A stretch of 64,000 bases of DNA from Sphingobium sp. TKS (GTDB taxonomy: Bacteria; Pseudomonadota; Alphaproteobacteria; Sphingomonadales; Sphingomonadaceae), in assembly GCF_001563265.1 (NCBI RefSeq), contig NZ_CP005083.1:2235001-2299000 (forward strand). The letters are read 5' to 3'. Made by a program: the position numbers and the translations under genes. Positions within the stretch are counted from its first letter, which is position 1; the number at the start of each line of letters is the position of its first letter. Below the pieces are notes generated by a model. It had not been told where the DNA came from. It was given only the letters and a program-made list of their open reading frames with translations, and did no database searches. Positions 5,186 to 47,906 of this stretch are shown piece by piece.

Positions 5186-7576
5186 TCAGTCCGACCAGGT
5201 CCAGTCCCTGATCTCCGGCAGATCGTCGAAATGCTCGCGGATGTAGGCCTCATGCTCCGCGAGCAGAGCGTTGCAGCGTTCGATCAGGTCGCTGTTCGCG
5301 GTCAGCGCACCCGATACGTAGCGCAGCGCGTCAAGGCAGAGATGCAGGCGGCTCATCTCGTTGAGGACCACCATGTCGAACGGGGTGGTCGTCGTTCCTT
5401 CCTCCATGTAACCACGCACGTGGAACCGCTCATGCGCCGACCGGCCATGCAGCAAATCGTGGACGACGCCCGGATAGCCGTGAAAAGCGAACACCACCGG
5501 CACGTTGGCTGTGAAAATCTCCACGAAGTCGGCATCGCTCATGCCGTGCGGATGCCGATCAGCGGGGGCCAGCCGCATGAGATCGACGATGTTGACCACG
5601 CGAACCTTGAGGTCGGGGGCATGCCGTCTCAGCATCCAGGCAGCGGCGATCGTCTCTTGCGTAGGCACGTCGCCGGCGCAGGCGAGCACGATGTCCGGCG
5701 CCTCGGGCTGATTGCTGTACATGTCCCACACACCCGCACCGCTCGCGCAATGCGCCTCGGCCTCCGCCATCGTCAGCCATTGCAGTTGCGGCTGCTTGTC
5801 GATGACGATCAGGTTCAGATAATTGCGGCTCCGGAGACAGTGGTCGGCGACCGAGAGCAGGCAATTGGCGTCCGGCGGCAGGTAGACACGGGCGACAACC
5901 GGCTTGCGATGAATGATCGTATCGATGAAGCCCGGCCCCTGGTGGCTGAAGCCGTTATGGTCGTTGCGCCAGCAGGTCGACGTCAGCAGATAGTTGAGCG
6001 AGGGTATGTCGGCGCGCCAAGGCACCCGGCGGGCATGCTCGATCCATTTGGAATGCTGCATCGCCATCGAATCGATGATCATGGCGAAGGCTTCGTAGGT
6101 CGCGAACAGGCCGTGGCGGCCGGTGAGCGTGTAACCTTCGAGCCAGCCGTGGCAGCAATGCTCGCTCAGCACCTCCATCACTCGGCCGCCGTGCGAGATA
6201 TGGTCGTCGCCCGGTTCGATCTCGCTCACGAGACAGCGATCCGAGGCGTCGAACACCGCACCCAGCCGGTTCGAATTTGTCTCGTCCGGACAGAAAAGGC
6301 GGAAATTGTCGGGATTGTCGCGATAGAGGTCGCGCAGATATTGGCCGAGAACGGCGGTGGAGCCGATCCGCTCCGCAGCGCGCCGCTCGAACCGGACCTG
6401 GTATACCGTATAAACAGGAAGCTTGAGCGGCTTCGTCAGCAAGCCGCCATTGGCCTGCGGGTTGGACCCCATTCGACGGTCGCCCTCCGGCGCCAGCGCG
6501 GCGATCTCGGGCTGGAGCCGTCCGTCAGCATCGAACAGCTCTTCCGGGTGATAGCTGCGCAGCCAGTCTTCCAGGATGCGCAGATGCTCGGGGTTGGTCC
6601 TGACCTCCGAGACCGGCACCTGGTGGGCGCGGAACGTACCCTCGATCTGCACGCCGTCGACGATCTTCGGGCCGGTCCAACCTTTTGGCGTGCGCAGCAC
6701 GATCAGCGGCCAGACCGGGCGATCTCCGAGGCCGTTCGCACGCGCTTCCTTCTGGATATCCCTGATCCCGAGGACCGCGGCCTCCAGCACGGCCGCGAAC
6801 TGCTGATGGACGACCATCGGGTCGTCGCCCTCGACGAAGACCGGCGCATAGCCCTGACCTTCGAAGAATTTGGCCAGGTCGGCATCGCTGTGTCGGGCCC
6901 AGACGGTCGGGCCCGAAATCTTGTAGCCGTTGAGATGGAGGATCGGCAGCACCGCGCCGTCACGCGTCGGGTTGAGAAAGTCGATGCTTTTCCAGCTTCC
7001 GGCGAGCGGCCCGGTCTCGGCCTCGCCATCGCCGACCACCGCCGTCACCAGCAGGTCGGGATTGTCCATCACCGCCCCGAAGGCATGAAGCAGCACATAG
7101 CCAAGTTCGCCGCCCTCGTGGATCGAGCCGGGGGTCGGCACGCTGACGTGGCTCGGGACGCCGCCCGGGGTCGAGAACTGGCGGAACAGGCGCAGCATGC
7201 CCGCCCCGTCGCGTGTAATCTCGGGATAGAAATCGCTATAGCTGCCCTCCAGCCAGACATTGGCGATCAGCGCCGGGCCACCGTGGCCGGGACCGGCCAT
7301 GTAGATGGTGTCGAGATCATATTTGCGGATCAGCCGGTTCATGTGGACGTAGACCAGGTTGAGTCCTGGCGACGTACCCCAATGGCCGAGCAGCCGCGGT
7401 TTGATATGCTCGATCTTCAGGGCCTCCCGAAGCAGAGGATTGGCCGACAGATAGATCTGCCCCACATTGAGATAGTTGGCGGCCCGCCACCAAGCGTCCA
7501 TCCGTTTCAACTCGTCGGCATCGAGCGGGGCGGCCGGATCGAACGAGCCATGGCGGACATCTGTGTCGTGGGTCAT
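5186..7576 (-). CDS. xfp: Xylulose-5-phosphate/fructose-6-phosphate phosphoketolase
   Basis: This thiamine-diphosphate enzyme splits xylulose-5-P or fructose-6-P with phosphate to give acetyl-phosphate plus a C3 or C4 sugar phosphate. The 796-residue length and motifs match the family along its full length: [11 protein letters not shown] near the start, [10 protein letters not shown], the substrate/cofactor loop AGPGHGGPA, the diphosphate-binding [14 protein letters not shown], and [10 protein letters not shown] in the second half. GGGAG precedes the ATG at 7576. It is followed on the same strand by two flavodoxin-fold reductases, with a gap of about 780 bases upstream. No acetate kinase gene is beside it. 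Confidence 0.95.
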
Positions 7577-9992: not shown

Positions 9993-10490
9993 ATGAGCGA
10001 GGAAAGTGCCAACGCGTCCGGGTTGCGAGACAAAGGGAAGGGCGCCGGTAAAGACCTAGCGAAAAACGATCATTCCGATGGGCAGGTGCCTGATGACGAG
10101 CAGCATCTCTCGCCTGCACCGAACGACCCTGTCTCACATCCAGCTTATCTCGAAGGCGTGAGGATCGCGCACCTCTTCCTGTCGGCGCTGCGCCTGCGCG
10201 AGGACATCTTTGGCGAGGGCCTTTTCGCCGATCCAGCCTGGGACATTCTGCTCGACCTCCACGGTGCCGAGGCGCGCGAGGAGAATGTCAACGTCACCAG
10301 CTTTTCGCCCATGGCTCCGAGCACGTCGGCCCGCTGGGCCCAGATACTCTCGAAGAAGGGGCTCGTCGTTCGAACAAGAGACCCAAAGGACCGGCGCAGA
10401 ATCCACCTCAGGCTCACTCCGCAAGGGCGTGCCCTCATGCGGACCTATTTCGACACGCTGATCCAGAGAGGAGCTGGCCTGACAAGGTAG
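9993..10490 (+). CDS. Winged-helix (MarR-like) DNA-binding protein
   Basis: After a polar N-terminal tail of about 45 residues comes a wHTH domain: DPAWDILLDLHGAEAR, then a recognition-helix region (MAPSTSARWAQILSKKGLV), then the wing (RTRDPKDRRRIHLRLTPQGRAL). AGGAG lies nine bases before the ATG at 9993. The same architecture recurs in the - strand gene at 26542-26940, so both belong to one family of small regulators. The target is unknown. Confidence 0.75.
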   Translation: MSEESANASGLRDKGKGAGKDLAKNDHSDGQVPDDEQHLSPAPNDPVSHPAYLEGVRIAHLFLSALRLREDIFGEGLFADPAWDILLDLHGAEAREENVNVTSFSPMAPSTSARWAQILSKKGLVVRTRDPKDRRRIHLRLTPQGRALMRTYFDTLIQRGAGLTR

Positions 10491-12163: not shown

Positions 12164-12672
12164 GCGGCTTCCTGCTCGACACGAACATCCTCTCGGAATT
12201 GCGGAAACCTCGGCCGGAGGCCAACGTCGTCCGGTTCGTGGCTGCGCAGGGCGAAGATGATCTGTTCGTCTCGGACGTGACTTTTGCGGAGATCCGGTTC
12301 GGGATCGAGCAGCTGGCGGACGCGGATCGCCGGGCGCACATCGCAAGCTGGCTCGATCATGAGCTACGGCCGCTGTTTGCGGGCAGGACGCTTGCGATCG
12401 ATGAGAACGTGCTGTTGCGTTGGCGGCTCCTTCTCGAGGCTGGGAGACGTCGCGGTCACGTTTTCGGACAGCTCGATCTTCTGATCGGGGCCTGCGCGGC
12501 CGAGAATGGTCTGATCGTGGTCAGCCGGGATGTAACGCATTTCAAGGCTGCCGGCGTGCCTGTTCTCGAGCCCTGGAAGGCCATTTTCATCCCTTCCAAG
12601 AGCGTCCCGATCAATGTCGACGATCTCGCGAATCCTAGCCTGTTGTCTAGCCTCCTGGCCCAGCGGGGGTGA
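12160..12672 (+). CDS. vapC: PIN-domain toxin (VapC/FitB type)
   Basis: PIN toxins are metal-dependent RNases that cut tRNA, rRNA or mRNA. The acidic residues of the active site are present in FLLDTNILSEL, SDVTFAEIRFGIEQL and GQLDLLIGACAAENGL, with the last conserved region at VVSRDVTHFKAAGV. The protein is about 170 residues, with 20-25 extra at the C-terminus. It is translationally coupled to the antitoxin (GTGA overlap). Confidence 0.88.
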   Translation: MSGFLLDTNILSELRKPRPEANVVRFVAAQGEDDLFVSDVTFAEIRFGIEQLADADRRAHIASWLDHELRPLFAGRTLAIDENVLLRWRLLLEAGRRRGHVFGQLDLLIGACAAENGLIVVSRDVTHFKAAGVPVLEPWKAIFIPSKSVPINVDDLANPSLLSSLLAQRG

Positions 12673-12728
12673 AGCTTGACTATCGTTTCACTCCATCCCG
12701 CGAAAGCTCCACCAGAAGACCAGCACTG

Positions 12729-13718
12729 ATGCGGACCGATCTGGATCATTTGCCGGCGGATCGACGACGCGAACTGGGGGATTTCGTGCTACGCACGATA
12801 TTGACCGCGTTCGAGGATGCCCATGCCAGTTCGGTGACCGGCTGGAAGAAAAAAGGCCGCATCCACAAGATCGTGCTTTATGGCAGCTTCGCGCGCGGCG
12901 GCTGGGTGTACGAGCCCCACACCAAAAAGGCCTATTCGTCGGACTACGACCTTCTGGTCATGGTCAATCGCAAGCAGGTCGTGGACAATATCGCCTTCTG
13001 GTCCGCGTTGGAGGACCGATTCCTCAAGGCGTGCGCTGCCGGCCGCATAAAGAGCTTGCCTTCGATGATCGTCCACACCCGTCAGGAAGTTCACAGCGCC
13101 CTGTCCAGAGGCCGTTATTTCTTCATGGATATCGTGAAAGACGGTATCCTGCTGTACGATGCCGACGATGTAGAATTTCCAAAACCGAAACCTAAGACGC
13201 CCAGCGATAAAGTGGCATTGGCAGAGGAATATTTTGGAGAATGGTATCCGAGCGCCGGAGAGTTTTATGATGATTTTTCGCGCAATTTGGAATTGTCTCG
13301 AACTCACAAAGCCGCCTTCGAACTACACCAATGCGTCGAGCATCTCTACAATGCCGTGCTTCTGACCTTAACATTCTATGCGCCGCGCAATCACAATATA
13401 AAAGCATTGCGGGGAATGGCGGACAAGCTCGATCGTCGCCTCGCCTATGTTTGGCCAAGCGACTTTCATTGGCAGCGGGCTGCGTTCAACATCCTGCGCG
13501 ATGCCTATGTCAAGGCACGCTACGCCAGACCGGGCTACAAGATCACGGTGGAACAGTTGCGCTGGCTGGGCGAGATCACGCAGAATCTCTCGGAAGCGGT
13601 GCGCATCGTGTGCCAGGAACATATCGCTGCGCTGAAGGCGGAGGCAATGCATTCGGTCGACGCGATACCTGTCTCGGTGCGCAATATCGATAGAGCGGTC
13701 GAGGAGGAGAGCGAATGA
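12729..13718 (+). CDS. Nucleotidyltransferase-HEPN fusion protein, first copy
   Basis: The N-terminal half is a minimal nucleotidyltransferase (IVLYGSFARG, then SSDYDLLVMV, with the GS and D-x-D signature). The C-terminal half is a HEPN helical domain (AAFELHQCVEHLYNAVLL). Separate MNT and HEPN proteins form a known toxin-antitoxin class in which the transferase AMPylates the HEPN toxin. Here they are fused, and the role is open. ATG 12729 is preferred over the longer frame start at 12669, which overlaps the toxin gene. The stop overlaps the next ATG (ATGA). Confidence 0.8.
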   Translation: MRTDLDHLPADRRRELGDFVLRTILTAFEDAHASSVTGWKKKGRIHKIVLYGSFARGGWVYEPHTKKAYSSDYDLLVMVNRKQVVDNIAFWSALEDRFLKACAAGRIKSLPSMIVHTRQEVHSALSRGRYFFMDIVKDGILLYDADDVEFPKPKPKTPSDKVALAEEYFGEWYPSAGEFYDDFSRNLELSRTHKAAFELHQCVEHLYNAVLLTLTFYAPRNHNIKALRGMADKLDRRLAYVWPSDFHWQRAAFNILRDAYVKARYARPGYKITVEQLRWLGEITQNLSEAVRIVCQEHIAALKAEAMHSVDAIPVSVRNIDRAVEEESE

Positions 13719-14638
13719 GGCATGGCATTGAGCATGTCGCAGTCACGGAGCGGCCCGAACTCGAACGCATAATCGGCATGATCCTTGAGGAGTTCGAGGA
13801 TGTGCTGTCGCTCGCGCAGCAAGAATGGCGATCGAAGGGTCGGATCACAAAGATCGTTCTCTATGGCAGCCGTGCGCGCGGGGACTGGGTGGACCTGCAT
13901 CACACCCATGTCGGGAAGCATTCCGACTGGGACCTGATCGTTATGGTCAATGATGAACGATTGACCGACCGCATCAAATATTGGCGCAACGTGACCGAGC
14001 GGCTCTATCGGGAATATCGCTTCACGCACAGACTGCGATCACCGGCCCATTATTTCGTATACACGATAGAGCAAATCAATGCATCGCTCGAGAGCGGGCG
14101 TTATTTTTTCATCGATTTCCTGCGTGACGGCATCGTCGTGTACGAGACCGATGACGCCGCACTCGTTGAGCCGAAACCCATGTCTCCCAAGCGCGTGCTG
14201 AAATTAACCCAGGAGTATTTCGAGGACTGGTTCAAAAGCTCGATCGAATTTTACGACGATTACATCGGGAACGTGGAAAAGGATCGGATCAAGAAGGCGG
14301 CATATGAGCTCCATCAATGCGTAGAACGGCTCTATCATTCAGTCCTGCTGGTCTACACGCTGTATACGCCCCACAGCCACAATATCGTCGAGTTGCGCAA
14401 TGCCGCCGAATTGCACGATCCCGCGCTCGCTTCGGCATGGCCACGCGAAGAGGATGCGGATGTCGCCGCGTTCGAGAAGCTCCAGCAGGCTTATGTGAAG
14501 GCGCGTTACCCGAGGGACTATCACATTTCGGAGGAGCAGCTTGCCTGGCTCGGCGAGCATGCCGAGCATTTGATCAAACTCGTCGAGGCGAGCTGCAAGG
14601 CCCGGATCGCGCGGCTCGAGGACGACGCGCGCAAATAA
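13715..14638 (+). CDS. Nucleotidyltransferase-HEPN fusion protein, second copy
   Basis: A paralogue of the preceding gene with the same order: transferase motif LYGSRARGDW and HSDWDLIVMV, then HEPN region AAYELHQCVERLYHSVLL. The metal-binding D-x-D is kept in both copies, so neither looks dead. The pair overlaps by four bases and probably makes two proteins in fixed ratio. The two may form a heteromer or specialise on different targets. Confidence 0.8.
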   Translation: MRHGIEHVAVTERPELERIIGMILEEFEDVLSLAQQEWRSKGRITKIVLYGSRARGDWVDLHHTHVGKHSDWDLIVMVNDERLTDRIKYWRNVTERLYREYRFTHRLRSPAHYFVYTIEQINASLESGRYFFIDFLRDGIVVYETDDAALVEPKPMSPKRVLKLTQEYFEDWFKSSIEFYDDYIGNVEKDRIKKAAYELHQCVERLYHSVLLVYTLYTPHSHNIVELRNAAELHDPALASAWPREEDADVAAFEKLQQAYVKARYPRDYHISEEQLAWLGEHAEHLIKLVEASCKARIARLEDDARK

Positions 14639-15167: not shown

Positions 15168-15710
15168 ATGTTCGTCGTGAACGGCCCGCAAGATGGCGCC
15201 GCGCCTCGGCTGGTTTCAGAGGCACATGGCGACGCCATCGAGGCGCTGTTCCGCGTCGAAGGGCCTCGGCTGCAACGCTATATCCGCCGACGGTTACACT
15301 CGGGCGAAGATGTCTGCGATCTCGTTCAGGAGGCATTTGTGCGACTTGCCCAGGTCGCGCGTGAAGCCATGCCGGCGCGGCCCGCCGCCTATCTTCAGCG
15401 CATTGCAAGAAACCTCCTGATCGACCGCTCACGACGAGAAATCCACTCAGCCGTTCTTCGCGTCGTCCAGGACATTGCCGTGCCGGCAACGCAGGAAGAC
15501 GGCTTGCGCCTGAACGATGTGATGCAGACTTATGAGGCCACATTGGCGGTCATGCCTGAGCGCACACGCACCGTGTTTCTGCTCTATCGGGTCGAAGAGC
15601 TGTGCTACCGGGAGATCGCGGCGCGGCTGGGTATCAGCATCCCGGCCGTACAGAAGCACATGGCGAAGGCATTGGAAAGAATAGCGCTTGCGTTGCTCGA
15701 TGAGGCTTGA
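15168..15710 (+). CDS. ECF sigma factor, FecI type
   Basis: Alternative sigma factor expected to switch on the adjoining receptor genes when released by its FecR partner. Region 2 is seen in ALFRVEGPRLQRYIRRRL and DLVQEAFVRLAQ, and region 4 in LPERTRTVFLLYRV-like sequence (here MPERTRTVFLLYRVEEL) followed by the helix-turn-helix YREIAARLGISIPAVQKHMAKAL. The stop overlaps the fecR start. FecI-FecR-TonB receptor genes commonly accompany isopeptidase-type lasso clusters. Confidence 0.9.
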   Translation: MFVVNGPQDGAAPRLVSEAHGDAIEALFRVEGPRLQRYIRRRLHSGEDVCDLVQEAFVRLAQVAREAMPARPAAYLQRIARNLLIDRSRREIHSAVLRVVQDIAVPATQEDGLRLNDVMQTYEATLAVMPERTRTVFLLYRVEELCYREIAARLGISIPAVQKHMAKALERIALALLDEA

Positions 15711-16705
15711 GAGTGCGATCTCCTGAACGATCCGCGTTGCGTGACGCTGCAACCTGGCTCGCGCGGATGAAAGGGCCGGACGCCTTGGCCTGGCAATCCG
15801 AATTCGAGCTATGGCTCGGCGCCGATGACCTGCACCGCATGGCGTACAGCCATATTGCCGAGACCTACAGTCTCGGCAAGAACCTCAACCCGACGAAAAT
15901 CGAGTTTCTTGTCCAGGCGGAGGAGGAAACAAAGGCGCGCCGGCTGCGTCGCCTCGCGGCGATGGTCGGGCTGGCGATGGTCGTGATGACCCCACTCATC
16001 TATCTGATGCGTCCAACGACCATCGCCGAGCGTGGAACGGCTGCACCGCCGTCCCAGTTCTCGACGCGGATCGGCGAGATCCGTTCGGTCGACCTCGCGG
16101 ACGGATCGATCGTCACCCTCGACACCAACACGTATCTGGACGTCGTATTCGGCCGGGATCGGCGCGAGCTGTGGCTCAAGAAGGGACGCGCAAGGTTCAA
16201 CGTGGCACATGATGGACGGACATTTGTCGTCCACGCTGGCGCTGGCACCGTCGTCGCCCACGGCACTGTGTTCGATGTTCGGGTGGACGGCGCCAGGGCG
16301 ATGGTTCGGCTCATTCAGGGGGCGATCGATGTCCACGTTCCGGGCAAGGTACAGTCGGAAGGCGTGATCCACAGGGCTTTGCCTGGACAGGCAGTCGCCT
16401 TCGATGACTCGCATGGTGTCGTTGCTGTTGCACCGTCCCAAGAGACGGAAATCGTTCAGACAACATGGCCAGACGCGCTACTCGATTTCGACGGCGCGAC
16501 GCTGGGAGAAATGGCGGCGGAGGCCAATCGGTATTCCGACGAAAGGTTGATCATTGCCGATCCAGCGCTGGCGACAAGACGGGTCTCCGGCACATTCCGG
16601 GTCGGCGATCCGGAGAGGCTGGCCGATCGCCTCGCGATCCTTCTTGATGCTCGGGTCGGCCGAACTCCCGATGGCGATATCACGCTGAATGGACAATCCC
16701 GCTAA
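15707..16705 (+). CDS. FecR-type anti-sigma factor / signal transducer
   Basis: An inner-membrane protein that holds the sigma factor and receives the signal from the outer-membrane receptor. The cytoplasmic N-terminal part (WLARMKGPDALAWQSEFELWL) is the usual FecR N-domain. One membrane segment follows (GLAMVVMTPLIYLM, about residues 88-102). The periplasmic FecR domain has IGEIRSVDLADGSIVTLDTNT, and the C-terminal part resembles an STN-like fold. The start may be TTG 15707, overlapping the sigma stop, or GTG 15713. Confidence 0.88.
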   Translation: MRVRSPERSALRDAATWLARMKGPDALAWQSEFELWLGADDLHRMAYSHIAETYSLGKNLNPTKIEFLVQAEEETKARRLRRLAAMVGLAMVVMTPLIYLMRPTTIAERGTAAPPSQFSTRIGEIRSVDLADGSIVTLDTNTYLDVVFGRDRRELWLKKGRARFNVAHDGRTFVVHAGAGTVVAHGTVFDVRVDGARAMVRLIQGAIDVHVPGKVQSEGVIHRALPGQAVAFDDSHGVVAVAPSQETEIVQTTWPDALLDFDGATLGEMAAEANRYSDERLIIADPALATRRVSGTFRVGDPERLADRLAILLDARVGRTPDGDITLNGQSR

Positions 16706-16801
16706 ATTTAGGAGAGCAAGCGGTTAAAAAACCCAACCCTCTGCGTCGCATGCCCCTGAAAGGCCGGAAATTCATCCGGCCCAGCGTCATTCGGGGGACA
16801 C

Positions 16802-19369
16802 ATGGGGTTCAGGAAAGCGATTGTGAATGCGTTGCTTGGTTCGACGCTTCTGGCCAGCACGGCGGTTGCCGCTGCCGCCGAAGGGGAGCCGACGAGGCAG
16901 TCATACGATGTTCCCAGCCAGGATCTGGGCGCAGCTCTTCGCGCAGTGGGCAGGGCCGCCAATCGTGAAATCATTTTCGAAACGGATGTCGTTCAAGGGA
17001 AGCGGGCGCCTGCCCTTGACGGTTCATACACGACGAGAGAGGCGGTCGAACAGCTCCTCCGCGGTACCGATCTCGTAGCGGTCGAGCGAGGCGGGGCGAT
17101 CCTTATCCGGAGCCGATTTCGGGAAGCTTCGGCGGAACTGAGTTCCAGTGGCGGCAGCTCCGACATTGTTGTCACGGGATCGCGGATCAGAGGCGCAGAA
17201 TCCCCGTCAGCAGTCTACGAATATTCGGCAGCGGAAGTCAAACAGCAGGGCGTTACAGATCTGCGTGAACTGGCTTCGATCATACCACAGAATTTTACAG
17301 GTGGTCAAAATCCTGGTGTCGGGCAAGGCCCCGGTCTTTTCGGTAGCCAAAATGGGGATTCGTCGACGGCCCTCAATCTCAGAGGGCTCGGCCCCGACGC
17401 GACGTTGACACTCCTCAACGGTCGCCGAATGGTCTACGGCTCCATTACACAGGGAGTGGATTTCTCCAGCATTCCGCTCGCCGCAGTTGAACGAGTAGAA
17501 GTCCTGCCAGATGGCGCATCAGCGCTGTACGGTTCCGACGCTGTCGGCGGCGTTGTGAACATCCTTCTCAAGCGAAACTATCGAGGGTTGGCTTTTGATA
17601 CGGCTATCGGGGCGTCAACCGATGGGGGGAATTTTACGCAAAATTATAGCGCCGTTGGCGGGACCCAATGGTCGGGCGGCGGCCTCGTCCTGACTGGGAA
17701 TTTTGCTCGCAATTCGGCCATCACCGCCGGCCGGCGATCTTACACTGCCGCGATGAATCCGAACGCGACATTGTTTCCCATGATTCGCACAGTCAGTGTC
17801 GTCGCAAGCGGCCACCAACAAATCGGCGACGTCTTGAGTTTGAATGCGGATGGCTATTACACCAGCCGTGATACGGCGACGGACGCACCAAATCAAACCA
17901 CCGGCCCTCTGACTGATTTCGGCGTAATCCTTCGATCGAAGAGTTGGACCTATGGCATCATGCCGGCCGCAACAATCGATTTATCCCCTTGGAAGATATC
18001 CTTGAATGGTGTCTTCGGTCGTAGCTTTTCGCCCATAGTTACTCGGGTATTTCTCCAAGGTTCGCAGCTACTGCGCAACGAAGTGATCTATGACAACGAA
18101 AATCGGGTCGTAGAAGCGGGTGCAGAGGGCCCGCTGTTCGATCTTCCCGGCGGACGAGTAAGGCTTGCTTTTGGCGGTGGATGGCGTCGCAATGAGTTGA
18201 CAACGACCCGAGCGACGGTCGTCCGTCGCGGAGACCAATCAGCATATTATGGGTATGCCGAGCTTAATTTGCCCCTGGTGGGGGAGCAGAATGCCATGCC
18301 GGGCGTGGAGAAGCTTCGTGTAAGCGCTGCCTATAGATACGAGCGTTACGATGGTCTATCAAACGTGGGAACCCCGCGACTTGGCCTGATTTGGGCCCCC
18401 GTCCGCGGAGCTGAAATCAAATTGTCGTGGGGCCGTTCTTTCAAGGCTCCCACTCTCGCGCAGCAGCTTTCTATTCCTGCCGCCACGCTGCTGTCCGCAG
18501 CATCTGGCGGAAGTACGGTCCCGAGCGGACGAACCCTGCTCTCTCTCTCAGGCGGAAGCACGACGCTGAGGCCCGAACGCGCAACGAGCTTCTCAGCAAC
18601 AATCGACATCCGCCCACCGACGTTACCCGGTCTCGCGGTTAGCGTGAGCTATTTCGACGTTCGTTACCGTGATCGCATCGTTGCGCCGGTCGGCTCGATC
18701 GAGACGGCGCTACTGAGTCAAGCCTTTGCTGAATTGGTCGAGTTCAGGCCGTCCCTGTCTGCGATTCAGGAGGCGGTGAGCGTTTCGCCAACGGGTTTGA
18801 ACAATCAGACAGGTAGACCGTTCGACCCGGCCTCGGTATTTGCTATAATCGATGGCCGATTTCGTAACATTGCCAGCACATCTTACAGTGGCGTCGACGG
18901 ATCAATATCCTATCGCTTGGAATTTGGATCGCGGAATTCCCTCTCATTCCGGGCCGATGCGTCATACCTAACCTCAAGCCGTCAGCTCGTTCCCTTGGAA
19001 CCGAGCGTCCAACTTGCCGGCACGATATTTAATCCGCCGCGGTTCAGGGCTCGCGGCGGCCTCTCCTGGACAAATAGTGGGGGCGTGGGAGCGAATCTCT
19101 TCGCGAACTATCTAGGCAGCGTCCGCGATAACCGCACAGCATCAACTTATTCGACAGCCTCCATGACGACGTGGGATATAACCGCTCGATACAAGTTAAA
19201 CGGAGAATCCAGCCGGTCCAACTGGGAAGTGCAGATGTCGGTACTAAATTTGTTCGATAGGAAACCGAGCTTTATCCGAACGACAAGCGCGCTTTTCGAG
19301 CCATATGATTCGACGAATTACTCGGCGATCGGCCGATTTGTTAAGTTCTCACTTTCTGCACAGTTCTAG
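16802..19369 (+). CDS. TonB-dependent outer-membrane receptor with N-terminal signalling domain
   Basis: An outer-membrane transporter of 855 residues with a signal peptide (about residues 1-26, ending AVAAAAEG). An STN signalling domain follows (SYDVPSQDLGAALRAVGRAA to about residue 105), then the plug (DIVVTGSRIRG, LRGLGPDATLTLLNGRR, GVDFSSIPLAAVERVEVLPDG) and a beta barrel ending in Phe. The STN domain fits signalling to FecR. Its place before the isopeptidase gene suggests it imports the lasso peptide, or a complex of it, for sensing and breakdown. Base composition is lower in GC than that of the flanking genes. Confidence 0.92.
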   Translation: MGFRKAIVNALLGSTLLASTAVAAAAEGEPTRQSYDVPSQDLGAALRAVGRAANREIIFETDVVQGKRAPALDGSYTTREAVEQLLRGTDLVAVERGGAILIRSRFREASAELSSSGGSSDIVVTGSRIRGAESPSAVYEYSAAEVKQQGVTDLRELASIIPQNFTGGQNPGVGQGPGLFGSQNGDSSTALNLRGLGPDATLTLLNGRRMVYGSITQGVDFSSIPLAAVERVEVLPDGASALYGSDAVGGVVNILLKRNYRGLAFDTAIGASTDGGNFTQNYSAVGGTQWSGGGLVLTGNFARNSAITAGRRSYTAAMNPNATLFPMIRTVSVVASGHQQIGDVLSLNADGYYTSRDTATDAPNQTTGPLTDFGVILRSKSWTYGIMPAATIDLSPWKISLNGVFGRSFSPIVTRVFLQGSQLLRNEVIYDNENRVVEAGAEGPLFDLPGGRVRLAFGGGWRRNELTTTRATVVRRGDQSAYYGYAELNLPLVGEQNAMPGVEKLRVSAAYRYERYDGLSNVGTPRLGLIWAPVRGAEIKLSWGRSFKAPTLAQQLSIPAATLLSAASGGSTVPSGRTLLSLSGGSTTLRPERATSFSATIDIRPPTLPGLAVSVSYFDVRYRDRIVAPVGSIETALLSQAFAELVEFRPSLSAIQEAVSVSPTGLNNQTGRPFDPASVFAIIDGRFRNIASTSYSGVDGSISYRLEFGSRNSLSFRADASYLTSSRQLVPLEPSVQLAGTIFNPPRFRARGGLSWTNSGGVGANLFANYLGSVRDNRTASTYSTASMTTWDITARYKLNGESSRSNWEVQMSVLNLFDRKPSFIRTTSALFEPYDSTNYSAIGRFVKFSLSAQF

Positions 19370-19371
19370 TG

Positions 19372-21480
19372 ATGTTCTCACTGGCGCTCATGCTTGCAGC
19401 GATGTCTGCGGTGTCGGCCCCATGTGCGTCGTCTTCCGAGTCCGGATCGTCGCGCAACGTCCAAGCGCGAGATTTGGTCTCATTGCGGGATATTGGAGGG
19501 ATGGCTGATACCGAGCCTCCCTTCAGCATATCGCCGGACGGTCGCAAGGTCGCCTTGACCGTGCGCCAAGGAGATGCCGACAGGAACGTGTATTGCACCA
19601 CGCTTTATATTATCGATATCCGCAGTCGAAAGATCGATCTTGAACTCCCTATCGATGGCGAGCCGATCTTGGGAACTTTCGACAGACCGCCAGTTGCAGA
19701 TTTTGGCACCGGGGCCATCGAAACAATCATCCCGAGATGGTCCCCGGATGGTGAGAGGCTCGCCTTATTGCTGCGTCGGGAGGGCCGGACCCAGGTGTGG
19801 ATGCTGCCAAGCGCCGGCGGTACTCTCGCTCTGCTCTCGCGCTCCACTGAAGATGTTCGTGGATTTCGTTGGAGCGAGACTGGCGCGCAAATAATATTCA
19901 CTGTGAGGACACCCCCGCATCAGACGCAAGAGGGGCTTCAGGGCTATCGATACGATGATCGATGGTTACCAAATTGGGGACCGGCCCCCCGGCCTCCGGC
20001 AACCCCGTTTCAAACGTTCGCGATCGGCGTGGAGGGGCGCCATGACGTGCTGCCGATAGAAGCGGAACGCATAGCTGCAGAACCGCGTCGTCAACGTGCA
20101 TCTACCGGCGCCGAGGCATGGATCGGGTCAAAGGATCCAAGGTTTGTGAATTCTGCCACCACGATCGTCATCCGCCGGAACGACGGAACCGAGATGACGT
20201 GCGCCGATGCCATATGTTCGGACGTGGAGCAGATCTGGTTCGGCGATAATGGCAGCACCCTATTTTTCCTTTCGCGCGCTGGGTGGGCACGCAGCCTGAC
20301 GAAGATTTACTCCTGGCCGGTAACGCGCGCTCAACCACGCCTCCTATATCAAACTCGCGACCTCATCAGCGGATGTGCAAGTTCCCGAACGGATATCATC
20401 TGCGCCGCTGAGTCTGCAGCGGTGCCGCGACGGCTGATCACTATCGGCAAAGCCACGGGCGATCGCACGCTCCTGTTCGACCCCAATCCGCAATGGCATT
20501 CCCTGAAGGTCGGATCCGTAAGACATCTCGAGGATCGCAATCAATATGGTTTGCCGTACTTTGCTGAGCTTGTCCTTCCGCCCGGAACCGGCGAACGCCC
20601 GAAATTGCCGCTTGTGATCGTCGGCTATTATGCGCGGGGATTTTTGCGAGGTGGTGTCGGCGACAGCTACCCGATCTTCCCTTTGGCGTCCGCGGGCTAT
20701 GCCGTTCTAGTATATAATCGGCCCGTCTACTACGGTCTCGCGCAGCCAGTGAAGACGACGGAGGAAAGCACCCGGATCGGTGTCACGAATTGGATGGACA
20801 AGCGCAGCGTTTCATCGGCGATACTAACTACCGTAGATCGTCTTGTTCGCGAGGAAATCGTTGACCCTAAACGGATAGGCATCACTGGATTCAGCGATGG
20901 TGCTGACAAAGCACGCTATATGCTAGTTCATTCGCCGATCTTCGCGGCCGCCGCAATTTCCTCCTGTTGTGATGACCCTGTGTCCCTTCGAGCGATGCTG
21001 GGTCCGCTGCTTACGAAATCGGCGCTAGCGATGGGCTATCCAGGGTTCGATTACGGAAACGTGGAGCGTACAAAAGAATATTCCCTCGCGGCAAATGCGC
21101 ATCGAATAAGATCGCCCCTCCTGATTCAGACATCTGATCGCGAATACTTGTACGCTCTGGAAAGCGAACAGGCATTGCGTGCTAACGGTAAGCCCGTCGC
21201 TCTCTACGTATTTCCCGACGAGTATCATATTTTCTGGCAGCCTGCGCACCGGTTGGCTGCCTATGATCGAAGCATAGCGTGGTTCAATTTCTGGATGCTC
21301 GACAAATCATCAGGACCAGCCTCAATGATAACGGACATCGGATCTTGGCGGTCATTACAGGAAGCGTCGACATCGCTTAAGATTGGAACTAATGAAGCAG
21401 CAGGCCTTGTTCCGTCCAGAAACGGCACCAACTCTCAACGTCAACCAGTTCCAAGATTCGCAGAAAGTCCAAGCCCCTAG
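19372..21480 (+). CDS. Lasso-peptide isopeptidase (prolyl-oligopeptidase fold, AtxE-like)
   Basis: The AtxE family cleaves the isopeptide bond of a lasso ring and linearises the peptide. The protein has a signal peptide (MFSLALMLAAMSAVSAPC), a beta-propeller with SPDGRKVALTV and WSPDGERLALLL blades, and a C-terminal alpha/beta hydrolase. The triad is visible as the Ser in GFSDGAD (about residue 508), the Asp in QTSDREYL, and the His in FPDEYHIFW. ATG 19372 is preferred; a GTG at 19369 overlaps the receptor stop. It is tail-to-tail with the cyclase gene and overlaps it by 92 bases. An ordinary S9 peptidase is the alternative, but the neighbours make the lasso role much more likely. Confidence 0.88.
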   Translation: MFSLALMLAAMSAVSAPCASSSESGSSRNVQARDLVSLRDIGGMADTEPPFSISPDGRKVALTVRQGDADRNVYCTTLYIIDIRSRKIDLELPIDGEPILGTFDRPPVADFGTGAIETIIPRWSPDGERLALLLRREGRTQVWMLPSAGGTLALLSRSTEDVRGFRWSETGAQIIFTVRTPPHQTQEGLQGYRYDDRWLPNWGPAPRPPATPFQTFAIGVEGRHDVLPIEAERIAAEPRRQRASTGAEAWIGSKDPRFVNSATTIVIRRNDGTEMTCADAICSDVEQIWFGDNGSTLFFLSRAGWARSLTKIYSWPVTRAQPRLLYQTRDLISGCASSRTDIICAAESAAVPRRLITIGKATGDRTLLFDPNPQWHSLKVGSVRHLEDRNQYGLPYFAELVLPPGTGERPKLPLVIVGYYARGFLRGGVGDSYPIFPLASAGYAVLVYNRPVYYGLAQPVKTTEESTRIGVTNWMDKRSVSSAILTTVDRLVREEIVDPKRIGITGFSDGADKARYMLVHSPIFAAAAISSCCDDPVSLRAMLGPLLTKSALAMGYPGFDYGNVERTKEYSLAANAHRIRSPLLIQTSDREYLYALESEQALRANGKPVALYVFPDEYHIFWQPAHRLAAYDRSIAWFNFWMLDKSSGPASMITDIGSWRSLQEASTSLKIGTNEAAGLVPSRNGTNSQRQPVPRFAESPSP

Positions 21481-23137
21481 ACGGCCCCTCGCTTTTGCAG
21501 CACCGAGCAACGGCATCGCGGTCGAGTAGGTTCCGGTCAGCGAGCAATCCATTGGCGAGATAGTCACCGAGGCTTTTCCTATGCGCTTCAAAGAAGCGAC
21601 TATGCAAAGCTACTGGTGTTCCCTTTGTCGTGCGAGATACCAAGCTGGCAGGGAGGAGGTCGGAACAGGCTTTGCGCGCGATGAATCTGTCAAGGTCATT
21701 CTCGAACCACATCCATGTCGGAACAGATATTGCTCGCTCTACGATGGGCGAAGTCAGAAGTGGCGATACGCTCGTTACGTTGTCTGCTTGGGCGAAGCGT
21801 TCAAGATGATTATGCGCGACGACAAGCGATGCGACGTGGGCAGCCTTACCGGGCATGGTCGCCTCGGCTCGCATCAGCCAGGGATGTAGAATCGCGGGCC
21901 GCTCGATCTCCCGCAAAGTCGCGCCGAGCATGCTGCTATTGCGTGGCCACCGATAGCCGGTCGAGCCCGATAAAGCTCGTGCAACCCCCCTTAGCGCCGC
22001 GCTCCAAATCTGTGAGTATGATGCACCTGTCAAATTGGCGAGGGAACGAGATACACGCCCCGCCAATTTCAAGCTGCGCCCATGGAGTATCGCATCAGAA
22101 AGGGGGCGGGCTGACCGTAAAGAGCAAAATACGTTGTCGCCACCGTAGCCGTTAAAGATCATGCATGACTCTTCTTTGCACGCCAGTTTCCGTAGCGTCG
22201 AATCTACTCCCATCGCTAGGCCTCGATTTGTAGGCCGAGGCAGGAATGCGCGCATCGTCAAGCACGTTTCCAACTCTGGTGCGACGTAGGGAAGTACAAG
22301 CAACTCACATTTTAAATGCTCGGCGAGCCCTTGGGCGTAACGCCGTTCGTCCCCATACGGATCATCGGTGTAGAATGTCACAAGTGTTGTCTTTGTGCAA
22401 TCTCGAGAAGTAAGTGCAGCGATGATGGATGAATCCAGGCCCCCAGATACTGTTACAAGAGATTGTTTTGACACAGAGGACAGGCCTCTGTGAACCGTCT
22501 CCAGAGCACCTCTTAATTCGCGTGTGGCATCCTCATAGGTCATCTTAACGTCGACCACGATGTCCCAAGGAGACCAGACCGTACCGATGCTTATTCCGTT
22601 CCGTGTGATGGTTGCCTGCTCCCCAGGCAATAACTCTGTAACCCCGCGCAAGGCAGTCGCGGCATGAAAGTTTCCCGGGAACAGAAGCGTTTCTCCGAGG
22701 ACTGCCCAGTCGATGGCTGGTGTCAGGAACCCTCCCTTGACCAACAGGTCTACGTCTGACGAGAAGACAAACGCTCCGTCCGCCTCCATGAAGTAGCAAG
22801 GCTGGAGACCGGACGGGTCGCGGACGACGCTAACCCTACCGTCTACATGTCTTTTGATTGAAACAAATGAACCCCAGCGTTCACGAAGAATTTCCGCATG
22901 CTTGTCACACTTACGAATTTCGCTAACTGAACGCTGATCGCCGGACGGCGAGAAGCTCAAACCTATTGTGTAAATGTCGCCGTCGACAGAATGCTGGGAC
23001 TTCGGGATATCATTACAATACAATGTAGCTTGTTTGAAAGCGAACGCAAGTTTCAGGCCCGCACTTTGGAATGGTAGCGCAGAATGTTGTCTTGGCTCAT
23101 TATTGTCAATTGCTACTCGGCAGATGAAGCGGCTCAC
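21389..23137 (-). CDS. Lasso-peptide macrolactam synthetase (C protein, asparagine-synthetase-like)
   Basis: This enzyme activates the side-chain carboxylate of the ring residue with ATP and joins it to the new N-terminus of the core. The N-terminal half resembles the glutaminase domain but lacks the catalytic Cys2 (it begins MSR). The PP-loop SGGLDSS is at 231-237 and the synthetase motif FNGYGGDNVF follows. At 582 residues it matches lasso C proteins. It starts four bases after the B gene stop. Confidence 0.92.
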   Translation of the reverse strand: MSRFICRVAIDNNEPRQHSALPFQSAGLKLAFAFKQATLYCNDIPKSQHSVDGDIYTIGLSFSPSGDQRSVSEIRKCDKHAEILRERWGSFVSIKRHVDGRVSVVRDPSGLQPCYFMEADGAFVFSSDVDLLVKGGFLTPAIDWAVLGETLLFPGNFHAATALRGVTELLPGEQATITRNGISIGTVWSPWDIVVDVKMTYEDATRELRGALETVHRGLSSVSKQSLVTVSGGLDSSIIAALTSRDCTKTTLVTFYTDDPYGDERRYAQGLAEHLKCELLVLPYVAPELETCLTMRAFLPRPTNRGLAMGVDSTLRKLACKEESCMIFNGYGGDNVFCSLRSARPLSDAILHGRSLKLAGRVSRSLANLTGASYSQIWSAALRGVARALSGSTGYRWPRNSSMLGATLREIERPAILHPWLMRAEATMPGKAAHVASLVVAHNHLERFAQADNVTSVSPLLTSPIVERAISVPTWMWFENDLDRFIARKACSDLLPASLVSRTTKGTPVALHSRFFEAHRKSLGDYLANGLLADRNLLDRDAVARCCKSEGPSRGLDFLRILELVDVESWCRFWTEQGLLLH

Positions 23138-23141
23138 GACG

Positions 23142-23795
23142 CTATACGCCCAGGATTGGTGTGAAGGTTGTTACCTTGTCAAGTTCGTCGTTCAGGACGC
23201 AGTGGTCGCGTTGGAGCCAGCAATGGGCTAGAAACGGCGTGGAGCGCACGCCCACGACGACAGTGCATCTGATACGGGCAATTCCAAGATGCCACGCAGC
23301 CGCAAGGGACTTTTCCACGCAGCGGTCATGTCGTCCGGCGAATAGGGCTGCCTTTCGGTGTGCCGCTATTAGGAGCGCGGTTCGAGCCCCGTCATTCGAC
23401 AGGTATGCTTCATCACGTCTTACCCAACGCAGGGTTAAGGGGACTGCCCTGATGCCGAATTGCTTCAATGCTATACGTGCTGCCAATTGCAGCACCAATG
23501 CAACAGCAATTGAGAGCCCGCTTGGTCTTAATTGGGCTGCTTCACCAAGTGTCGTTCGAGCTGGCTGCGGGCTGGGCTGGCAAAGCGTGGAGCGTGGAGA
23601 GTGCAAATCAATGCCAAGACGAGAGAGCGACCGGAGGGCAGCCTCGTCGACCGGACTCAGGAAACCTTCTTCGCATAGACGAGAGAACGCCTGCTCAGCG
23701 GTATGTGGCAGTGAAAAATATCGATTGCCCGCCACGTCGAGGAGAATTGTTCGGCCGCCCGTCCGCGTGAAATATATCTGAGGGTGAATGGCCAT
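23142..23795 (-). CDS. Lasso-peptide B protein: RRE plus leader peptidase
   Basis: A fused B protein of 217 residues. The N-terminal 80 residues are the PqqD-like recognition element that binds the leader (IYFTRTGG, TILLDVAGNRYFSLP). The C-terminal part is the transglutaminase-like cysteine protease that removes the leader, with Cys159 (HDRCVEKSLAAAWHL), His191 (FLAHCWL) and Asp203 (LNDELDK). The frame is open up to 23846, overlapping the precursor stop. ATG 23795 is chosen because the RRE begins right there and the longer form would span the hairpin. Confidence 0.92.
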   Translation of the reverse strand: MAIHPQIYFTRTGGRTILLDVAGNRYFSLPHTAEQAFSRLCEEGFLSPVDEAALRSLSRLGIDLHSPRSTLCQPSPQPARTTLGEAAQLRPSGLSIAVALVLQLAARIALKQFGIRAVPLTLRWVRRDEAYLSNDGARTALLIAAHRKAALFAGRHDRCVEKSLAAAWHLGIARIRCTVVVGVRSTPFLAHCWLQRDHCVLNDELDKVTTFTPILGV

Positions 23796-23812
23796 ATTGC
23801 GCCTATCACGAA

Positions 23813-23836
23813 CGGGCGCGCGCAAGCGCGCGCCCG
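23813..23836 (-). promoter_or_regulatory. Strong stem-loop between the precursor and B genes
   Basis: A perfect 10-base stem (CGGGCGCGCG pairing with CGCGCGCCCG) around a 4-base loop, seven bases after the precursor stop. No run of T follows, so it is unlikely to be a full terminator. Hairpins here in other lasso operons protect the 3' end of the short A message or lower read-through, giving more precursor than enzymes. That role is inferred. Confidence 0.75.
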
Positions 23837-23842
23837 AGGCGA

Positions 23843-23980
23843 TCATTCCGGATCGAGGCCGGGACCGAAGGCCAGACCAGTCAGTTCATCCGGTTGGCCC
23901 ATCGATTGTAGTCCCTTGGTTTCCTCGGTGACAGCACCGAGATCGATGAGGTCGTCGTCCAGTTCATTCTCGCGGCTCAT
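23843..23980 (-). CDS. Lasso-peptide precursor (A gene), 45 residues
   Basis: ATG 23980 with GGAGGA upstream. The leader is residues 1-22 (MSRENELDDDLIDLGAVTEE, then Thr-Lys), with the Thr at position -2 that lasso leader peptidases need. The core is 23 residues starting GLQSMGQPD and ending GPGLDPE. Asp9 of the core is the expected ring partner of Gly1, giving a nine-residue ring as in astexin-1, whose core starts GLSQGVEPD. Residues Leu14-Phe16 are possible plugs. B and C follow on the same strand. The mature peptide is apparently undescribed, but that needs a database check. Confidence 0.93.
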   Translation of the reverse strand: MSRENELDDDLIDLGAVTEETKGLQSMGQPDELTGLAFGPGLDPE

Positions 23981-24146
23981 GGTGTCCTCCATTCGCATTG
24001 GGTACTGCGGTGTGCAGCACGCCAGATCCTATCCGCGCGGAGGTTGATCACCGATCTGATAAGCTATCATTGACGACACGAGTTGTGACGCAGTCATGGC
24101 GGGCGGTGATAGTAAACCGGTCGAATGTGTCGTTTCTGGCACGAAT

Positions 24147-24794
24147 TCAGTCGGATCGGCCGCCGTGAACCATGCCGCCGACCGCGGCGACCAGGTCTGT
24201 TACGCGACGGAGGCGGCGCCTGTGGTAGGCCCATATGGCTGTCATCAGGTCCGAGGTTCTACCGGTCACGGTCAAGGCTTGGACCGCCCCGAGCTCATCG
24301 GCCACGCCGCCGAGTACTAAAGGCTCTCTGAGTCTCACCACATGAAGGCGCTCACCAGCGGCAAGGATTGCACTGCGATGTTGTGCGTTTGGTGAATGAC
24401 CCGCAATATGCGAGAAGAGGTTCGCCGCAGCGGCCGCGATAGCCGCTGCTGCGATCAGGTTGGTCAGGCTTTCGAACTCTTCGCGGGGTCGTTCTGGTGC
24501 GGCGCGTTTCCCGACATGGAGAGCATTGCGGAGAAGCTGGCCATGCCAAAAGTAGAGATCGCGAAGGCCGTCTTCCGTGATGTCGGGGACATCAAAGCCG
24601 CCTCCCGGATGAAGCTTCAGCAGCTTCTCGCCGACAAGGCAGTACGCTGCACTGCGAACAGGGCTGATGCTCACACCATATTCTACGGCGAGAGCGCGTT
24701 CTACGAGCCGAGTGCGTGGAGGAAAGCGGCCCCCGATGATGTCCGCCTTCAATTGCTCATAGATACGCGTGGTCGTTACCGGATCGGAGGACAT
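24147..24794 (-). CDS. GntR-family transcriptional regulator (FCD type)
   Basis: The N-terminal winged helix reads TRIYEQLKADIIGGRFPPRTRL, then VEYGVSISPVRSAAYCLVGE, typical of FadR/VanR-type GntR proteins. A mostly helical effector domain follows. ATG 24794 is chosen where the domain begins; the frame runs on to 25034 without protein-like sequence. It sits 166 bases upstream of the precursor gene in the same direction, so it is a likely controller of the A-B-C operon. The effector is unknown. Confidence 0.8.
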   Translation of the reverse strand: MSSDPVTTTRIYEQLKADIIGGRFPPRTRLVERALAVEYGVSISPVRSAAYCLVGEKLLKLHPGGGFDVPDITEDGLRDLYFWHGQLLRNALHVGKRAAPERPREEFESLTNLIAAAAIAAAAANLFSHIAGHSPNAQHRSAILAAGERLHVVRLREPLVLGGVADELGAVQALTVTGRTSDLMTAIWAYHRRRLRRVTDLVAAVGGMVHGGRSD

Positions 24795-25337
24795 GGATCG
24801 CGCTTCACGGATAGGCCGAAGCGCGGAATACGGTCGCTCGTGCAAGGAGATCGAGCCAAGACCAGGGATGGCACCCGTTACGGACGGCCCGCGTTTTCGT
24901 TCGATCGAAGCGGCGGATTTGTGAGAACGAACGCCGTTGGAGGATGACAGGCTGCCGTCCTGGAGTTCGAAGAGGCCGACTGAGCTGCGCGTTGCCGTAG
25001 CGCGGAATTTCGCCATTCGCCAATCGCACGCCAACTCTCCTTACAGGTGCAGCGGCTCCGAATGTCGAATGATCGGTTCAACTCATTGTCCGGTCAAAAA
25101 GAATTAGTCTCGCATGCGATAGTATTCTCAGGGCTTCGCTCGGTTGCCCTGAGCTCCCAGATACGACTAGCTATCGAACGCTTCGGCATTAAGCAGCGGC
25201 ATGAGCCCCCGTTCGGCCGCGACGACACGCGCTTGGGTGAGGGGCTTTTAGGTGGCGACCCGCGCGCCCGCTAACTCAGCTGTGTGCCAAGCCTGTCGTC
25301 GGACAGGACGAGAACACCACCCCGCTCCAACACGATT
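24795..25337. other. Gene-poor stretch between GntR and a dead toxin gene
   Basis: About 540 bases without a convincing gene. On the - strand near 25276-25320 a short piece (VLVLSDDRLGTQLS then stop) looks like the tail of a lost protein, but nothing joins to it. Confidence 0.4.
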
Positions 25338-29618: not shown

Positions 29619-29754
29619 CTGCCCGGCAGTAAGACTTCAGGGGCCGTGGCTTCCAGCTGCGGCCCCATTTTTCATGCTGTCTCCGTTCCTGGGAGGAGAG
29701 GGGGAAGGTGACGGGTGGCGGGGCTGCGGAGCCCCAAAAATCAAGGAGCCCCCA

Positions 29755-32700
29755 ATGAACCTTCCTCTCCTTCGGCTGGTGGAGTCGGCCGACGACACCC
29801 GGGACAAGGCCGCTCGCCTCTTCGGTGTCGCCCGTTTGCTCGCGGACGGCCTCGCGCGCGGCGAGGTCCCCACCAGGCAAAGCCTCAAGCGTCGAATGAC
29901 CGAGGCCTTCGACAGCTCGGACGCGACCGGCGCCTGGTCGATGCGCGACGCCTATGATGCGCTCGAAGCGGCCCAGGCGCTCTACCTTGGTCGGGCGGAC
30001 TGTCCGCTTCGCAACGCCTCCGATCCCGCCGCGACATTTGCTGCCATGCGCCAGCTCCAGGAGAGGCTGCCGACGCAAACCTACCGCAGCGAGCACCAGG
30101 TGGCGATGCAGCAGTTCAGCACGCCGCTGGCTCTCGCATGGCTTGCCGCGCTCGCCGCTCGGTTGCGGGCCGGCGATCACGTCCTCGAACCTTCCGCCGG
30201 CACGGGCATGCTTGCCGCCCACGCAGCGTCCGACACGATCGCGCTGACGCTCAACGAGCGCGACCCCCAACGCGCACGCCTCCTTTCGCTCGCGCTCGAT
30301 CGACCGGTCGCCGAGCATGATGCCGAGTTCATCCATGACCGCCTCCCGGCTGGTGTCGAACCGAGCATCGTCCTGATCAACCCGCCCTTCAGCCGTAGCG
30401 AGGGCAGGGGCCGAGATCGCCACGCGGGGGCGCGACACCTCCGCTCCGCTCTCCTGCGCCTCGCCGCGGGGGGTCGCTGCGTCGCCATCATGTCGCCGGC
30501 TTTCGCCGCGGACGGCAGCGACGCCGGCGGTTACAACGCCGTTGCCGAGCTCGTGCCACCCCGCGTCGAGATCACCATTCTCGGCCATCCTTATGCCAAG
30601 CACGGAACGGGTATCGCGGTCCGCCTTCTTGTCTTTGACAAAGGATGGACCGGAACGCCCGATCGTCGCACGGTCGACAGTCTCGACGCCGCGTTCGAGG
30701 CAGTGTTGGTCGTTCCGCCGCGGCTGGATCCGTCGACCCCGCCGATACCGCCAGCACAAGCCGCATACAGGCGGCCCGCTCCGCGCATCGCCAACGCGGC
30801 GGGTTCGCTCTTCGAAAACCTGTCACGCCCCCGGATCGTCGTCCCCGCCCGGATCGCCGCCAAGGGGGATGAGGCGAGGCCCCTGGCTTACGCCATCCGC
30901 GACACGCCGAGACCGGCTGGTGATCCCGTCGGCATCTATGCGCCCTGGCGCCTCGCCCGGATCGACATCGATGATGCCAAGACCCATCCGGACGAACTGG
31001 TCGAATCCATCGCCATGGCCTCGGTCCTGCCGCCGGCGCCCCGCCATCGTCCGACGCTGCAGCATCGCGCGTCCTCAAGTCTCTCGGACGCGCAGCTCGA
31101 GACGATCATCCATGCCGGCGAGGCATTTTCGCGCGATCTGCCTGGCACGTTCGTTCCGAACCAGGCCGGCGATCAGCTGAACGAGGATCCTGCCGGGAAC
31201 ACCTATCGCACCGGCTATTTCGTCGGCGACGGGACCGGCGTCGGCAAGGGTCGCGAGGGCGCCGCGATCATTCTCGACCAGTGGAATCAGGGCAACCGCC
31301 GCGCCATCTGGATCTCAAAAAGCGCGAGCCTCCTCGAGGACGCCCGTCGTGACTGGAGCGATCTGGGCGGTCTTCCCATCGATATCCAGCCGCTCGACGC
31401 CTTTCCGCTCGGCCAATCGATCGAGATGCCGAGCGGCATCCTTTTTCTTACTTATGCGACCCTTCGATCGGCGCGCCACGACCAGGCCTCGCGGCTCCAG
31501 CAGATCCTCGAATGGACCGGTCCCCGTTTCGAAGGCGTTATCCTGTTCGACGAATCCCACGCCATGGGCAATGCCGCCGGAACCGAAACCGAGTTCGGCA
31601 ACGCCAAGGGATCGGAACAAGGGCTCGCAGGCGTCCGGCTGCAGAACGCGCTGCCACGCGCCCGGATCGTCTATGAATCCGCGACCGGCGCCACCAAGCC
31701 CGACAACCTCAGCTACGCCTCGCGTCTGGGGCTGTGGGGGCCGGGCACGGCCTTCCAGGACCGCGGCGCCTTCATGGCGGCCATGGAGGACGGTGGCATT
31801 GCCGCCATGGAGATCGTCGCCCGCGATCTCAAGGCGATGGGTCTCTACACCGCACGCGCGCTCAGCTTCGCGGGCGTCGAATATGACCCGCTCGAACACA
31901 AGCTCACTCTCGATCAGATCGACATCTACGATGCCTATGCCGATGCCTGGTCCGTAATCCACCAGCATCTCGGTGAGGCGCTGAAAGCCGCGAACATCGT
32001 CGACCGCATGTCGGGCGACACGATGAACGCCATGGCCAAGGGCTCGGCGCTCTCGCGCTTCGAAAGCTCCAAGCAGCGCTTCTTCTCGCAGCTCCTCATC
32101 TCGATGAAAATGCCGACGGTCATCCGCGCGATCGAGACCGAGGTCGCCGCCGGCCACGCCGCCGTGGTCCAGCTGGTCACCACCGCGGAGGCCATCCTCG
32201 ATCGCCGCCTCTCCGATCTGTCGCCGGACGAGCGCGCCAATCTGTCCGTCGATGTCTCACCCCTCGACACGCTCATAGATTATCTGAAGACGGCATTCCC
32301 GACCCGCCAGATGCGCGCCTTCCGCGCGACCGACGGATCGATGCGATCCGAACCCATGGTCGACGAGGCCGGCCACCCGGTCCACTGCCAGGAAGCGATC
32401 GCCGCCCGTGACGATCTTATCGAGCGCCTCTGCGCCATGCCGCCGGTGCCGTCGGCGCTGGATGCTCTCATCTGGCACTTCGGAACAGACCAGGTGGCCG
32501 AGGTGACCGGCCGGTCCCGCCGTATCGTCCTCGATGCCCAGGGCAAGCAGAAGATCGAGCGCCGCAGCGCACGCTCGAACATCACCGAGACCGAAGCCTT
32601 CATGGGAAACAGGAAATCGATCCTGGTCTTCTCCGACGCCGGCGGTACCGGGCGTTCGTACCACGCCGACCTCAACAGCAAGAGCGCCCACAAGCGCCGT

Positions 32701-47577: not shown

Positions 47578-47906
47578 CGCGACCGTGACGCGGCCGCCAT
47601 GGTCATAGCGATCACTCTTATGCTCATGCATCCATATCCGCCGGGTCCGCCGGATCGGCGATTTGCGTTCGCACCCTGAAAGTCGTCGCCGGCGCGAAAA
47701 AAACGTCGCGCCGGTAACCCATCGGCCTTTGAGGCGCAGCCATCTTCCCAATCGCCGGCAGCCTTCGCGGATGGCACGATCGCCACCCATCCCTTCGACA
47801 CGAGGCCGGATGCAGCCCGCCATGGCTTGTGCGGACTCGCCGAGCGGTGATCGGTGACGGGAGGAGAGGGGGGGAAGAGACGGCGATCATCCTAGGAGAT
47901 CGCCCG

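Follow-up and report, generated by a model that had tools for sequence, protein, structure and literature searches.

The closest described systems are the isopeptidase-type lasso peptide clusters of the astexin, benenodin and subterisin class. These clusters have a near-constant architecture, with a GntR gene preceding the precursor gene, according to the consulted portion of a review (PMC9266682). The same portion states that AtxE2, SpI-IsoP and BenE linearise their cognate threaded peptide, and that AtxE1, AtxE2 and SpI-IsoP are inactive on peptides made by other clusters, the linearising activity of AtxE2 and SpI-IsoP being confined to their own. The sphingocin cluster of Sphingomonas sp. 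BPH, as far as the accessible part of its description goes (PMC11006600), encodes a 45-aa precursor with the leader end EETK, followed by B and C, has no ABC transporter and is faced by an isopeptidase and a TonB receptor.

The locus analysed here lies in a 64,000-nt window of the Sphingobium sp. TKS genome and shares all these traits of the sphingocin cluster. Like the astexin-2/-3 (AtxE2) and benenodin-1 (BenE) clusters of Asticcacaulis, going by what the review describes for the class, it has a GntR gene in front of precursor gene A, facing genes for an isopeptidase, a TonB receptor and a sigma/anti-sigma pair. Its isopeptidase belongs to the same family as theirs, and its core differs from theirs. 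We consider it highly probable that this is a cluster of the astexin/benenodin/subterisin class working by biosynthesis, re-uptake and linearisation. Judged by its sequence, it is a real, complete and otherwise ordinary member of the class with a new core. Less expected are a candidate GntR operator and the mosaic composition of the cluster.

Precursor and enzymes

Gene A (23843..23980, minus strand) is a 138-base frame translated as MSRENELDDDLIDLGAVTEETKGLQSMGQPDELTGLAFGPGLDPE. The 45-aa lasso precursor divides into a leader (residues 1-22, MSRENELDDDLIDLGAVTEETK, ending in ...TEETK) and a core (residues 23-45, GLQSMGQPDELTGLAFGPGLDPE). It scores 44 bits against the Pfam model Subterisin PF24178 (cut-off 27) and 37 bits against NF033522, the NCBIfam model of the benenodin family (cut-off 33); since both matches are above cut-off, the frame is more than a chance one. 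Thr at -2, Gly1 and an acid within positions 7-9 (Asp9) are all present, and a Gly1-Asp9 ring is predicted, for which astexin-1 is a precedent.

The preliminary description had reported this 45-residue precursor as part of a complete lasso-peptide system, with B and C behind it and an AtxE-like isopeptidase, a TonB receptor, FecR and FecI facing it. The translation, the two family models and the family matches of the other genes bear out a complete cluster of the isopeptidase type, whose precursor has Thr-2, Gly1, Asp9 and a core of 23 residues. Its view that the precursor had been overlooked is not supported: two curated libraries call A, and the protein database has the frame with a precomputed PF24178 label. 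As the Subterisin and benenodin family models recognise the frame, current annotation should call it. The core had also been called apparently new, and within the scope searched it is: the string GQPDELTGLAFG was absent from the open-licence papers searched, and the nearest relative is 82% identical. This relative, P0002, was the only one returned for A by the protein search and is present on 55 contigs. Its leader end and core (GLQPNGQPDELTGLAFGSGLDPE) are nearly the same as those of A, with three changes in the core.

For comparison, we used 104 loci (100 genome regions, three named loci and the window). Precursors were read in 103 of them, 107 in all with 81 distinct cores; three precursor rows under 33 bits, including the sole row of L158, were left out. 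Gly1 and Thr-2 occur in every precursor, which is no test, as the reading itself used the T.G pattern. An acid at position 8 is found in 74 of the 81 distinct cores. The window core has none there and belongs to a minority form in which position 9, but not position 8, is acidic (7/81, window core included). The locus offers a new lasso core of a minority ring type together with the complete set of genes for its maker, receptor and cutter. The core of L081 resembles sphingonodin I. The sphingocin core GPGFINNDGVGGKLPFAGLSDD has Asp8, whereas that of the window has Asp9 (PMC11006600, in the part available). No second precursor was found in the window: a profile applied to frames from the window and from the other 103 loci picked out a single frame in the window. 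Three loci from three genomes (L083, L107 and L120) combine an identical core, GAALDDSDNIGGQVRQLGIADD, with three different leaders, which suggests that core and leader may be swapped separately.

B (23142..23846, minus strand) codes for the putative leader peptidase, with an RRE-like N-terminus and a transglutaminase-like core (Cys176, His208), and matches NF033537 and PF13471. The start of its 234-aa frame overlaps the A stop. The database copy (P0003, 217 aa) begins 17 residues later, and B may start 17 codons further on. Cys176 is kept in 92/92 relatives and His208 in 91/92. A profile of 34 of the 92 B proteins weakly matches the leader-binding TfuB1 (6jx3; E 0.0037, profile positions 5-64), and the next matches are unrelated nucleoporins (E 0.03). 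A B peptidase with a leader-binding part, weak as the RRE resemblance is, thus stands beside a C cyclase, as expected of a lasso system. The N-terminus of B would bind the leader, which would be cut after Lys-1.

C (21389..23137, minus strand) codes for an asparagine-synthetase-like lasso cyclase (Asn_synthase, PF00733) with the SGGLDS motif at 231-236. The SGG.DS residues (Ser231, Gly232, Gly233, Asp235, Ser236) are conserved in all 91 relatives. C is predicted to close a ring between Gly1 and the Asp9 side chain, with the tail threaded through it, which would yield a lasso of 23 residues or tail-trimmed forms.

E (19369..21480, plus strand) codes for an AtxE2-type lasso isopeptidase, with 681 bits against NF033523 (cut-off 400) and 407 bits against the AtxE2 structure (5txc; residues 31-665). 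The Ser-His-acid triad of the AtxE2 family is recognisable: Ser509 and His620 are kept in 83/83 relatives, and the acid, placed by alignment position alone, is probably Asp590 or Glu592. The enzyme would linearise the re-imported peptide. C and E share 92 bases at their 3' ends, which is nothing special, as overlaps occur in 35 of the 90 loci with both genes.

That the cluster is decayed or silent, its 45-residue frame yielding no lasso peptide, appears very improbable. B is divergent, as decay would have it: the nearest relative compared is 33% identical, and when 5.8 billion proteins were searched by a method that relies on shared words, B itself alone came back. Against decay, every gene has an open frame, the family matches and catalytic residues are in place, and an 82% identical precursor is present on 55 contigs.

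Receptor, regulators and the candidate operator

The TonB-dependent receptor (16802..19369, plus strand) consists of an STN signalling domain, a plug and a barrel. It is accompanied, on the same strand and by family matches, by a FecR-like anti-sigma regulator (15707..16705) and a FecI-like ECF sigma factor (15168..15710). The receptor and the FecI/FecR pair thus lie alongside the isopeptidase, and the GntR gene lies before A, as described for the class. We propose that the exported lasso peptide is re-imported by the receptor, perhaps with cargo, and that its arrival is signalled via FecR to FecI.

The preliminary description supposed that the peptide is sensed and linearised by the same cell. 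The gene anatomy fits this, and the co-variation of the core with the receptor and isopeptidase, described below, fits it weakly. In another reading the peptide would be a siderophore-like carrier and not a self-sensed signal, taking cargo in via the TonB receptor, and the isopeptidase would set the cargo free. This hypothesis is raised both in the review (PMC9266682) and in the sphingocin paper (PMC11006600), in the portions consulted; the latter reports that a B-gene insertion in the sphingocin cluster of Sphingomonas BPH abolished phenanthrene use. The likeness of the receptor and FecI/FecR to ferric-citrate uptake also agrees with it. Since the carrier and sensing models share all genes, sequence cannot separate them, and we regard a carrier role as a substantial possibility, somewhat short of an even chance.

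The GntR-family regulator gene lies upstream of A (24147..25034, minus strand, as a frame from TTG). As the GntR domain occupies only residues 88-149 of this frame, the true start is, judged by eye, probably a Met at about 24797. By gene order, the gene belongs to the cluster: the arrangement GntR-A-B-C facing E-TonB-FecR-FecI is complete in 57/104 loci, 13 of the 104 being short of flanking DNA, and three further loci have the same order with two A genes before B.

A palindrome-containing element, TGATAGCTTATCAGATCGGTGATCAA, is located at 24044..24069 (minus strand), its 5' end 89 nt ahead of the A start codon. It may be the operator of the adjacent GntR, which would then probably control A through it. 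We found no paper on a GntR operator of lasso clusters in the part of the open-licence literature on GntR and lasso peptides that was consulted. The motif search was seeded by k-mers enriched in A promoters and covered 99 distinct promoters from 95 loci. Two seeds, the second taken from the window, gave 52 and 50 sites with the near-identical consensus TG.gAcCTTATAAGaTCGg..ATatG; the tests below rest on the second matrix. The start of the element lies at a median distance of 88 nt upstream of A (83-92 or 84-92 nt as the 10-90% range). Among the strong sites in the cluster regions of the 104 loci, near relatives included, 53 of 56 lie before A, two are assigned to B, one lies elsewhere and none is assigned to TonB or FecI. 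Motifs trained on half of the data recovered 37 of 50 held-out promoters, 36 of them at 78-98 nt before A, with near relatives present in both halves.

The element varies with GntR. Over 30 loci, element distance correlates with GntR distance at rho 0.66 (0.54 with FecI controlled, 0.52 when the leader is controlled as well), and its correlation with FecI given GntR is 0.11. Alternatively, the element could be a promoter or some other conserved site, its link to GntR reflecting mere adjacency. Its AT-richness and near-fixed distance from A would suit such a site, and it does correlate with further genes, including TonB (0.40) and FecI (0.47), though with each of them less than with GntR. Of four flanking 26-base segments (29 loci), the one 30 nt upstream also tracks GntR (rho 0.45); the other three do so at 0.04, 0.16 and 0.14 only. 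The palindrome speaks against this alternative, and so does the distribution of the element, which is present in 47/82 promoters with a GntR gene against 2/16 without one (Fisher p 0.0018; 98 of the 99 promoters). Its absence from the other 35 promoters with a GntR gene counts against the operator reading. On balance, we consider the promoter or adjacency explanation rather unlikely. If the element is the operator, it gives a direct handle on what releases GntR from 24044-24069.

Twenty-four bases of the window element recur exactly in L098 and otherwise, among 215 loci, only in L009, which is the window's own location. The A promoters of L078, L084 and L096 lack the main element and, by eye, have the common string CCGAACTTTATA.GG.TTCTATA, perhaps the operator of another GntR subgroup. 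K-mers before TonB and FecI gave no signal that matched the main element in clarity. GGAAATT, which we take to be similar to a FecI-type promoter, is found before TonB in 8/53 loci, and by eye in the window, and is not relied on.

Co-variation and lineage of the cluster genes

For co-variation, we kept loci with exactly one core (99/104) and full-length B, C, E, TonB, FecR and FecI (67). Removal of loci with E more than 90% identical to a retained one left 53, of which 46 have GntR; without the named locus L171, 45 were compared with gyrB.

Partial Mantel tests are liberal, and with B and C controlled (53 loci) they relate core distance to TonB (r 0.19; 12/5000 permutations as high) and E (0.18; 67/5000), with no tracking of FecR or FecI. 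Leader distance, under the same control, relates to FecR and FecI (0.29 each, 0/5000), with no tracking of E or TonB. Core distance is also related to C given E and TonB (0.16; 5/1000). When every other gene is controlled for on ranks, core-TonB falls to 0.02 and core-E to 0.13, and the contrast between core and leader is not significant (0.056, error 0.17). The core co-variation faintly suggests that receptor and isopeptidase may be adapted to the peptide.

Between the genes themselves (46 loci), FecI correlates with FecR (rho 0.55) and GntR (0.46) more than with the adjacent TonB (0.23); the FecI-GntR value exceeds that for FecI-TonB by 0.227 (jackknife error 0.08). Correlations among B, C, E and TonB are 0.47-0.67. 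GntR and FecI thus co-vary although the whole inner unit sits between them. Shared host descent was rejected as the cause, as no cluster gene tracks host gyrB (rho -0.09 to 0.04, 45 loci). GntR correlates with FecR at only 0.16, which counts against a simple outer unit.

In quick trees of 54-55 loci (46 in the case of GntR), the window C, E and TonB group with L161 and L162, and with L170 where present (SH-aLRT 100, 99 and 100), while FecI and FecR group with L098 (100 and 100). GntR clusters with the Sphingopyxis locus L171 (97), and B is poorly placed with other loci (81). Grouping FecI with L161/L162 is rejected by the AU test (p 0.011), as is grouping E with L098 (p 0.0035); both p values are optimistic, since the groups were defined only once the trees were known. 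By these trees, the cluster is a mosaic, with C, E and TonB of one lineage and FecI and FecR of another, and the grouping indicates the lineage partners of each set.

We speculate that the core, B, C, isopeptidase and receptor form an inner specificity unit that is swapped within a regulatory frame made up of GntR with its palindromic operator on one side and FecI (with FecR) on the other, the window's cluster being such a hybrid. This seems somewhat less likely than not, and the notion of separable units is weakened by the scarce co-variation of GntR and FecR. If true, GntR control of the peptide and FecI control of the receptor would form one linked circuit.

Distribution and surroundings

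PF24178 matches at E <= 0.05 were found in 54/94 genomes of the host genus, 53 of them over the cut-off, and in none of the 14 control genomes. Of the matches below cut-off genus-wide, G014:C30 was included in the loci and G021 left out. Of 61 related genomes, the host's own included, 27 contain a relative of the isopeptidase at E 1e-60 or better. A search for named relatives via B gave 260 pattern-matching stretches, with none confirmed. Three named loci only were found with the precursor pair (Sphingopyxis LC363 and LC81, Caulobacter Root343), and the nearest named precursors are those of Sphingopyxis.

The same genome carries a second complete lasso cluster on another contig (L155, G000:C2:794805-814804; A at 9995-10129). 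Its core is GIEGKARDVDQSPLTGMGILDE, and an identical precursor is carried by L153 in another genome. Neither the DNA of this second cluster nor the precursor had a match in the plasmid collection.

Just left of the window cluster, two adjacent genes (12669-14638, plus strand) each code for a HEPN domain together with a nucleotidyltransferase-like one, the Polbeta score of the first gene lying below cut-off; the pair is perhaps toxin-antitoxin or defence-like. The stretch to the right looks like a mobile-element-like region, with genes for a Strawberry-notch-type helicase (29674-34047, plus strand), a DDE transposase (45087-46442, minus strand) and a Mom-family protein (47829-48779, plus strand). 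The window also includes a full-length phosphoketolase gene (5186-7576, minus strand).
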